IMG/VR virus record: IMGVR_UViG_3300021962_000125
Span: 1-58,253 of that record
Length of the DNA stretch: 58,253 nucleotides
Direction: 5' to 3' (one strand)
From: a virus
Below are positions 45,956 to 47,794 of the stretch, in pieces. The position numbers were made by a program, and so were the translations under genes. Position 1 is the first letter of the stretch. The number at the start of each line of letters is the position of its first letter. The notes beneath the pieces were generated by a model that had not been told where the DNA came from, did not search any database, and was given only the letters and a program-made list of their open reading frames with translations.

Positions 45956-45978
45956 AAAAATCAGGGTCTGACCCCTGA
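45956..45978 (-). terminator. Rho-independent terminator after GIY-YIG gene 2
   Basis: On the minus strand TCAGGG (45973-45978) pairs with CCCTGA (45961-45966), followed by TTTTT (45960-45956). A second small inverted repeat (GAGTC/GACTC) lies between it and the endonuclease stop. Confidence 0.78.
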
Positions 45979-46011
45979 TGGCCACTTGAGTCTTGAGTGA
46001 GACTCACCGCC

Positions 46012-46512
46012 TCATCTGTAAGGTTGACCCTTCTCTGCTTGTTTTCTTCTCCATTCTCTCATATAAAGAGCGTGAGGTGATACACTTTCTTCTGGTGCAT
46101 ATTTACCCTTGTTTGGCGGTATTCTACCTTTAAGACTTTCCTTCATTTTGACTATACTTTCTTGAGTATGTTTTCTTCCGTAGAAATGATTTTTACTTCC
46201 CATTCTACTTTGAGACATTCTACTCCTTGTTGTTTCCGTGAGAGTTGCTCCAGAAGTTCCATCACCACCATTAGTTCTGTTCCAAAGAATACCAGTTCCT
46301 AAATCTTTTCTACCCAATACATTGATTAGATAGATTTCGTGCTTAAATGCGTCCTCTTCGTTATCGAAATGTTTGAGGATTAAAACTCTATCTACTGGAG
46401 GAACAAAAACATATCCTTTGTGGTCTCTATATGCTCTTTTATCTTTTCCCTTACCAATGTAGTAAGGTGTTCCGTCCTCACGCAGATATGCGTAGGTGTA
46501 GTATTCTTTCAT
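46012..46512 (-). CDS. GIY-YIG homing endonuclease 2
   Basis: 166 residues. The GIY-YIG core is YTYAYLREDGTPYYIGKG (residues 5-22), with catalytic-type Arg near 26 (KRAYRDH) and Glu in AFKHEIYLINVLG. A NUMOD3-like stretch follows (RSRMSQSRMGSKNHFYGRKH) and the C-terminus is SVSPHALYMREWRRKQ. It is clearly paralogous to the endonuclease at 48751. It lies downstream of the helicase gene with its own late promoter, an inverted repeat at the start codon and a terminator, so it is a self-contained insertion. Confidence 0.92.
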   Translation of the reverse strand: MKEYYTYAYLREDGTPYYIGKGKDKRAYRDHKGYVFVPPVDRVLILKHFDNEEDAFKHEIYLINVLGRKDLGTGILWNRTNGGDGTSGATLTETTRSRMSQSRMGSKNHFYGRKHTQESIVKMKESLKGRIPPNKGKYAPEESVSPHALYMREWRRKQAEKGQPYR

Positions 46513-46513
46513 C

Positions 46514-46586
46514 GTAAGTCTTGGCGTGACTATTAGTATTTATAGCATAAATGTGGGACTTACGCAACCAATCCGCCAAGACTTAC
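46514..46586 (-). promoter_or_regulatory. Inverted repeat enclosing a late promoter before GIY-YIG gene 2
   Basis: Perfect 13-base arms at 46514-46526 and 46574-46586 flank TATAAATA (46544-46537 on the minus strand). The inner arm ends one base before the ATG. RNA arriving from the helicase gene would carry both arms and hide the start in a 13-bp stem. RNA started at the late promoter would lack the first arm. Confidence 0.8.
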
Positions 46587-46606
46587 TGTTGCTGCCCACA
46601 CTCTAT

Positions 46607-47794
46607 TTACCGCCGCACTACACTATCAACCATCTCACCTTTCTCAAACACAGCATCAACGACTCGCTGAAGTGCTCGCTCTGTAGATACTCCAACTTTG
46701 GAATATACAGGCACAACACAGAGACCGAACACCTTCTCTTTGCCACCAAGGCGAAGAACACGACCAATAGTTTGAGTCATTTCGATCACATCCATATTGC
46801 GAAGAAATACAACAGCTTCTAGTTCGCTCACATTGATTCCTTCACTCAAGATAGAGCGATGGAAGCAAACAAACTTCTTGTTAGGATCACGACCCCAAGC
46901 ATTGAGTGTATCAAAAAATACCTCACGATTCACCTTCTTACCATCAATAATCGCTCCAGTTTTTGAGGTGATATAGAGGTAAGAATAACCACGCTGATTT
47001 AGTTGGGCAGCACAGTCAGTATGAGACATCAGGTTGATAAGTTGCTTCGCAGACTTAACACAGACCAGGATTTTCTTGCAATCAATATCCTCCAGAGTAT
47101 CCATAAGATTACTACTATCACACTCTGCAGTTACCTGCTTCGGTGCAAGAACATCAAACTTCTTTGCTACAATTTTAGGAGCAATGATGTATCCACCATC
47201 AACAAGTTCAGGAGCAGAAACGCGACAGATAATGTCACCATAGACATCACGATCATTCATTCCAGGTTTAGAAGGAGTGAGCGAAGTCTTCCTAGTTGCA
47301 GTGAAGAAATAGCAGCGACGTGCATTAGCAGCAAAGTGTTCAGTCGCAGGGAAAAAGTGACGCTGAACGCTATTATGGGCTTCGTCAAAGTAAATCGTAT
47401 CCACATCAATTCCTGCCACTTGCAGACGTGACAGAGAGTTGTAGGTGGTTACAATCAGGCGATGACTGTCAGCATTAGCATCAACCCAGCGACGAATCTC
47501 ACGAGGGCGAGTAGAAGATTCGTGGTGAGTTTCGCCACTATGAACGTGGAATACTTTTGCGTTGGTGATAAACTCCAGGAACTCGCTGGAGAGTTGCTCT
47601 GCCAAGAGAATACGAGGAGCAACAACAACAATGGTCTGGGGAGTTTCAGACTGCAACTCACGCAGACAATCATAGATCATCTTCAGAGTCTTGCCACCAC
47701 CAGTAGGAACAATGACTTGACCTTTATCATGCTGTTGCATAGCAGCAACACCACGTTCCTGATGAGGGCGAAGATTGATCAGATGAGGAATCAT
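46607..47794 (-). CDS. SF2 DEAH-type helicase
   Basis: 395 residues. Motif I PTGGGKT (30-36), motif II DEAH (137-140), motif III FFTATRK (163-169) and motif VI QTIGRVLRLG near residue 345 give a complete superfamily 2 core with both RecA-like halves and no large extra domain. Similar short helicases occur in cyanophages; T4 UvsW (503 residues) is a functional comparison, not a proven orthologue. It likely unwinds DNA or RNA during replication or recombination. A TATAAT lies upstream at 47836-47841. Confidence 0.9.
   Translation of the reverse strand: MIPHLINLRPHQERGVAAMQQHDKGQVIVPTGGGKTLKMIYDCLRELQSETPQTIVVVAPRILLAEQLSSEFLEFITNAKVFHVHSGETHHESSTRPREIRRWVDANADSHRLIVTTYNSLSRLQVAGIDVDTIYFDEAHNSVQRHFFPATEHFAANARRCYFFTATRKTSLTPSKPGMNDRDVYGDIICRVSAPELVDGGYIIAPKIVAKKFDVLAPKQVTAECDSSNLMDTLEDIDCKKILVCVKSAKQLINLMSHTDCAAQLNQRGYSYLYITSKTGAIIDGKKVNREVFFDTLNAWGRDPNKKFVCFHRSILSEGINVSELEAVVFLRNMDVIEMTQTIGRVLRLGGKEKVFGLCVVPVYSKVGVSTERALQRVVDAVFEKGEMVDSVVRR

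Follow-up and report, generated by a model that had tools for sequence, protein, structure and literature searches.

A covarying leader of pseudoknot layout with an internal late promoter box upstream of mobile nuclease genes in cyanophages

The DNA analyzed here (the window) is a 58-kb viral record of 58,253 nucleotides, whose closest annotated relatives are Synechococcus phages. On its minus strand, a UvsW-like helicase gene is followed by a 166-residue ORF, and the leader under study lies between the two (Table 1). The ORF product matched NUMOD3 in Pfam (E = 6.7e-15) and the homing endonuclease family PHROG 314 (E = 5e-18). For its predicted fold, the best seven PDB matches were UvrC GIY-YIG domains, with probabilities of 0.66-0.95 and E values of 0.1-0.4, none reaching 0.001. 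The motif YTY..YYIGKG and the residues R26 and E52 were invariant among 28 relatives. By its motif and modeled fold, the protein is assigned to the GIY-YIG group.

Table 1. Features of the leader and its surroundings, in window coordinates.
Feature	Positions	Strand	Evidence
UvsW-like helicase gene, upstream; stop codon 7 nt before helix A	46607..47794	-	ORF, domain searches
Whole leader, covariance model R1	46510..46610	-	E 1.6e-22, sole match in window
Helix A lower stem, 5' strand GTGGG	46595..46599	-	partner 46557-46553; covaries
Internal loop, 5' side CA	46593..46594	-	C followed by A (seldom by G or T) among leaders selected by protein
Helix A upper stem, 5' strand GCAAC	46588..46592	-	partner 46568-46564; double changes in 4/5 pairs
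Helix B outer arm GTAAGTCTTGGCG, lying within the helix A hairpin loop	46574..46586	-	arm search, covariation
Helix A upper stem, 3' strand GTTGC	46564..46568	-	covariation
Internal loop, 3' side GTAAGT	46558..46563	-	GTAAG in 29/29 protein-selected leaders
Helix A lower stem, 3' strand CCCAC	46553..46557	-	covariation
Putative late promoter box TATAAATA	46537..46544	-	motif position; resemblance to cyanophage late box; 21-25 nt from start codon
Helix B inner arm CGCCAAGACTTAC, adjoining the ATG	46514..46526	-	arm search, covariation
GIY-YIG / NUMOD3 homing endonuclease ORF, 166 aa	46012..46512	-	ORF list, Pfam, PHROG, fold search
Terminator-like hairpin 3' of the endonuclease gene	45960..45979	-	terminator scan

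The arms of helix B are 13 bases each, 100% complementary, and spaced by 47 nt, and the ATG (46512-46510) follows the inner arm after a single base (46513). Positions and complementarity agree with the original prediction, which placed perfect 13-base arms around the late box with the inner arm one base from the start codon. Taken alone, this repeat is weak evidence. Perfect 13-bp repeats within 120 nt occurred at a mean of 0.25 per Markov-1 resampled window, with at least one in 17.5% of them. The box itself was found five times in the window, and likewise five times as its reversed control. The match of covariance model R1 arises by construction, because the model alignment includes L001, a leader identical in sequence.

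Inspection of the leader revealed a second helix, helix A, which had been missed before. Its strands, GTGGG-CA-GCAAC (46599-46588) and GTTGC-GTAAGT-CCCAC (46568-46553), bracket the outer arm of helix B, so that the elements follow one another as in a pseudoknot (A-B-A'-promoter-B'-ATG). The leader had been read as a single inverted repeat; the pairing of its arms was upheld, and a simple hairpin gave way to the pseudoknot layout on account of the second covarying helix. With both helices carrying paired changes in a crossing order, the leader has the sequence signature of an H-type pseudoknot. The geometry is tight, with a 13-bp helix B and a short first loop. The length of helix B did not scale positively with that of the connecting loop (loop 2; r = -0.36), a comparison that is probably confounded by subtype. 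The internal loop of helix A was invariant across leaders as GUAAG[U/A].

To follow the leader in relatives, we scanned IMG/VR with the protein and read the upstream regions without regard to RNA. This yielded 69 relatives, 66 of them with upstream sequence. The window-type layout was present in 47 of the 66 (31 distinct), a terminator-like hairpin directly before TATAAATA in 14 (6 distinct), and a nested layout in three; two had neither. Thus, 64 of the 66 protein-selected GIY-YIG genes had one of three layouts, in which the late box is preceded by an element that folds or resembles a terminator.

Covariation was calculated on 29 aligned leaders of the window type, chosen by protein similarity. 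The proposed pairs were formed in 93.1% of the cells, compared with 78.3% in shuffles, and 14 of the 23 pairs showed changes on both sides, spread across all three helices. The original prediction required that paired changes maintain the arms in relatives, and the pairing was kept: there were 82 cells with double changes (24.8 in shuffles; 19 or fewer in slid controls), although these cells are non-independent events whose counts are inflated by shared descent. The covariation score was 0.369 (control 0.137). In a few leaders, MAFFT placed helix A one base out of register, which makes the pair counts conservative there. Among 35 leaders, 21 distinct arm pairs were found, including GTAAGTCTTGGCG/CGCCAAGACTTAC, TGTAGGTCTTGGCGG/TCGCCAAGACCTACA, GTATGTCTGGGG/CCCCAGACATAC, and TGTTGTCGGGGG/CCCCCGACAACA; the lowest helix score was 21, above the shuffled mean of 14.0. 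When helix B arms were swapped between different arm types, the score fell from a real mean of 32.0 to 17.8 (95th percentile 32), a control that is weaker than shuffling because related leaders share arm types. For the lower stem of helix A, 70 distinct examples could be compared. Outward position 4 paired in 100% of these, compared with 63% in shuffles, the parser's four-pair minimum favoring this position. Outward position 5, on which the minimum has no effect, paired in 81% compared with 59%. The cultured Synechococcus phage Sf-CH5 contributed a further compensated change in the upper stem (GCAGT/ACTGC), and the leader was also present in a second cultured Synechococcus phage, S-SRM01. At the level of sequence, this comparison of relatives was decisive for the arms and confirmed that they change in pairs around a conserved promoter box.

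The mismatches identified the folded strand. At positions that departed from Watson-Crick pairing, G-U exceeded A-C in each helix (12:4, 8:3, and 16:4), for a total of 36 to 11. This excess points to the sense RNA as the strand that folds.

The position of the putative promoter was conserved as well. We parsed 88 distinct elements with arm B and promoter from pattern scans, which had returned more than 100 stretches with a helix A core, some of them by chance. The box read TATAAATA in 48 of the 88 and almost always followed N[A/C]TAAATA; the window box agrees with the cyanophage late box, NATAAATA (PMC2984593), and lies between the two strands of helix B. From the end of the box to the start codon, the median distance was 23 nt (5-95% range 21-25 nt; 83 elements), and in the nested and terminator layouts the spacing was 23-24 nt. 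Unlike the box, the inner arm stands at a distance from the start codon that varies by subtype, either 0-2 nt or 7-9 nt. In T4, the late box lies about one helical turn upstream of the transcription start (PMC2988020). Combined with the fixed box distance, this spacing implies that late RNA should start close to the inner arm, about 5 nt before it, which in the window would be near 46531. The placement of the box is in line with the expectation that late RNA would lack the outer arm.

The predicted folding of the two RNAs differed. The read-through leader of the window folded at -39.5 kcal/mol (z = -4.66 relative to shuffles), and the late RNA was predicted to be almost unstructured, at -1.8 kcal/mol. 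Calculated alone, helix A yielded -11.5 kcal/mol and helix B -21.0 kcal/mol. An RNA that stops before B' was predicted to form helix A, with arm B held in its loop. Across 83 elements, the predicted unpaired probability at positions -15 to +3 was 0.29 for the read-through RNA and 0.71 for the late RNA. Since the folding program excludes pseudoknots, we infer the joint formation of helices A and B from covariation. No Shine-Dalgarno sequence was evident in the buried arm.

With the above results in hand, we consider it likely that the leader acts in cis and limits a mobile nuclease gene to late infection, through a fold on read-through RNA and an internal late start. RNA reading through from the upstream uvsW-like gene would bear all four strands; that such read-through occurs early is our assumption. 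Helix A would form first and hold arm B in its loop. Newly made B' would then pair with B, burying the last ~14 nt before the AUG in the 13-bp pseudoknot helix, and initiation on this RNA would be blocked. Later, a phage late sigma factor would initiate RNA at the box between A' and B'. Starting some 5 nt before B', this late RNA would be devoid of A, B, and A', remain unfolded, and be translated. We would guess that helix A presents arm B and stiffens the lock, and one idea for the internal loop is that its GUAA is akin to a GNRA motif.

The leader is not confined to one type of gene. The gene next to the 88 elements was a window-type GIY-YIG gene in 52 cases, another GIY-YIG gene in three, an HNH-type gene in 12, a member of a family starting with LNxxFxxxGP in 12, a PHROG 5018 protein, PD-(D/E)XK-like by reading, in two, and, with the nuclease gone, a DUF1825 gene in two; five elements ended at the contig end or had no ORF. 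Motif reading contributed to these family assignments: an HNH model scored only part of the HNH-type proteins, several families have no confirmed nuclease domain, and the L097 and L103 proteins are taken as PD-(D/E)XK from motif reading and PHROG 5018 alone. A PDB search with the latter two proteins returned nothing useful. The leaders of L001 (GIY-YIG) and L070 (HNH-type) were identical at 81 of 87 aligned positions. Of all elements, 35 were located after uvsW, and whole phage records mostly had one or two clear copies. The uvsW 3' ends of an occupied site (L024) and an empty one (L084) differed by the leader and the ORF, whose stop codon coincides with the flank TGAGACTC. As read from these two sites, leader and ORF were inserted as one unit, and the difference is compatible with homing.

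This distribution admits a wider reading, in which the leader is a portable RNA time lock independent of the nuclease. It would comprise the pseudoknot, its own late promoter, and the invariant loop, which would dock into helix B or bind a phage or host factor; the constant part would be exchanged among GIY-YIG, HNH, and other mobile nuclease genes, with the ORF as swapped cargo. We put this forward tentatively, as a possibility that we lean somewhat against.

The invariant loop is also central to a different explanation, in which a phage or host protein recognizes helix A with the GUAAG loop and the block depends on that protein. GTAAG was kept in all 29 protein-selected leaders while both flanking stems varied, and there is a precedent in the T4 gene 32 pseudoknot, which is bound by gp32 and serves translational autoregulation (PMC3014915). 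Against this, helix B is predicted to be stable by itself at -21 kcal/mol, the nested and terminator layouts do without helix A, and there is no candidate protein; we regard a protein-dependent block as rather unlikely. We think it improbable that helix A is a transcription terminator or a processing site for the upstream RNA, with the arm pairing being secondary. In related GIY-YIG genes, the late box does immediately follow a terminator-like hairpin, and the hairpin of the second GIY-YIG gene in the window is nested in arms, but the terminator scan of the window called none at helix A, several elements have no T-run after CCCAC, and covariation is as strong in helix B as in helix A. It is about as improbable that the repeats act at the DNA level, either as an operator for the endonuclease in I-TevI-style autorepression or as a recombination end. 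I-TevI does bind an operator over its own late promoter (PMC2988022), and the joint insertion of leader and ORF would suit a DNA element. However, a DNA site leaves the 36 to 11 preference for G-U over A-C unexplained, the arm sequences change freely with pairing kept, and the same leader stands before unrelated nucleases, whose specificities are expected to differ. A chance repeat, or a neutral feature copied along with the gene, can practically be dismissed: about one-sixth of resampled windows should contain a perfect 13-bp repeat, but the paired changes in three helices, the conserved promoter position, and the strand asymmetry speak against it.

The preferred reading, a cis-acting lock opened by late initiation, follows a logic known from T4-type phages. 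Inhibitory helices over the start region have been described for T4 e, soc, 49, I-TevI, I-TevII, I-TevIII, and segB and for Aeh1 mobE, with late promoters that let late RNA escape (PMC3014915, PMC2988022). The present leaders resemble the T4 e and I-TevI kind in that the start region is predicted to pair with an upstream strand and the putative late promoter lies between the strands. In I-TevI, as in I-TevII and I-TevIII, early or middle transcripts bury the start region in an RNA helix, and the late promoter omits the 5' strand; I-TevI, however, is intron-encoded and has a simple hairpin over the Shine-Dalgarno sequence, whereas here the genes are free-standing, the layout is that of a pseudoknot, and several gene families are involved. 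The genes e, soc, and 49 also have the start region sequestered by an RNA helix, and internal late promoters give block-free late RNA for gene e, but these are ordinary phage genes with simple hairpins. The homing endonucleases Aeh1 mobE and T4 segB are free-standing, as here, and for them RNA structure lowering initiation has been shown and implicated, respectively. The I-TevI-type logic originally proposed for a free-standing endonuclease was supported, but it is not new for such genes: mobE had been reported and segB implicated (PMC3014915, PMC2988022). In the reviews, mobE and segB are single genes, with neither a covarying leader shared across families nor a second crossing helix.

The gene 32 mRNA of T4, T2, and RB69 likewise has a pseudoknot in the leader that controls translation, which one review regards as perhaps the sole viral example of a pseudoknot used for translational autoregulation (PMC3014915). 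There, gp32 binds ~67 nt before the start codon, the leader has no late promoter within it, and the protein rather than the pseudoknot helix covers the start region. T4 segE, a GIY-YIG endonuclease gene beside inh/uvsW, parallels the many cyanophage genes just after uvsW, but the review describes no such leader for it. A search of open-licence papers returned no account of a covarying leader of the pseudoknot type common to several nuclease families. Rfam 15 gave no match in the window at the gathering threshold and only three tRNAs in the leaders of 15 further loci; at E <= 10, the sole match near the region was a weak snoRNA match at the ORF end. The pattern GGGCRGCAAN{14,34}TTGYGTAAGWCCC, which is narrower than the whole family, had no match in 84,980 prokaryote genomes. 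While the delay logic is known, its pseudoknotted and exchangeable version appears to be new.

These findings take the delay mechanism of T4 beyond the hairpins of single genes, to an RNA module that is shared and strongly covarying, and its many natural variants can be used to test how the timing of expression depends on RNA structure. The leader can serve as a marker for unannotated mobile nuclease genes; as an RNA motif it is both structured and new, and its conserved loop calls for an explanation. Three different layouts would reach late-only expression, which suggests that free-standing endonucleases of cyanophages generally require it.

Several further observations concern the other layouts. 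The second GIY-YIG gene of the window (49269-48751, minus strand) has a different lock at 49353-49267, in which a terminator-like hairpin is nested between the arms CTTAAGAGTCGCA and TGCGACTCTTCAAG and the box TATAAATA lies at 49301-49294 (minus strand). The nested plan recurred with other arm sequences in L022, L030, L032, L225, L226, L227, and phage S-B68 (L232). In the third plan (L044-L047, L049-L056, L059, and L060), a terminator-like hairpin with a T-run is followed by TATAAATA, with no arms over the start codon.

Other observations relate to the sites and the downstream genes. In L027 and L036, leader and ORF lie within the start of a MKPKNAWRWWA gene, at TGGTGGGC, which matches the leader's own start. 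An intron-like insertion was considered for these loci and set aside: splicing need not be assumed, because a separate, divergent complete copy of the gene follows. L157 and L181 have kept the leader and lost the nuclease ORF, with the DUF1825 gene next, and L183 has an ORF at the same site. In L203 and L065, a second uvsW C-terminal coding end is found 3' of the endonuclease gene, which may mark a homing event. L206, L212, L183, L186, L193, L115, L142, L149, and others encode small basic proteins that share the motif LNxxFxxxGP at the N terminus and differ at the C terminus, NUMOD3 being present in some; these proteins stand behind many leaders of the GTAGGGGTA subtype. The endonuclease genes of S-SRM01 and Sf-CH5 (L230, L231) are annotated as hypothetical protein and translation initiation factor 2, the latter of which looks like a misannotation.
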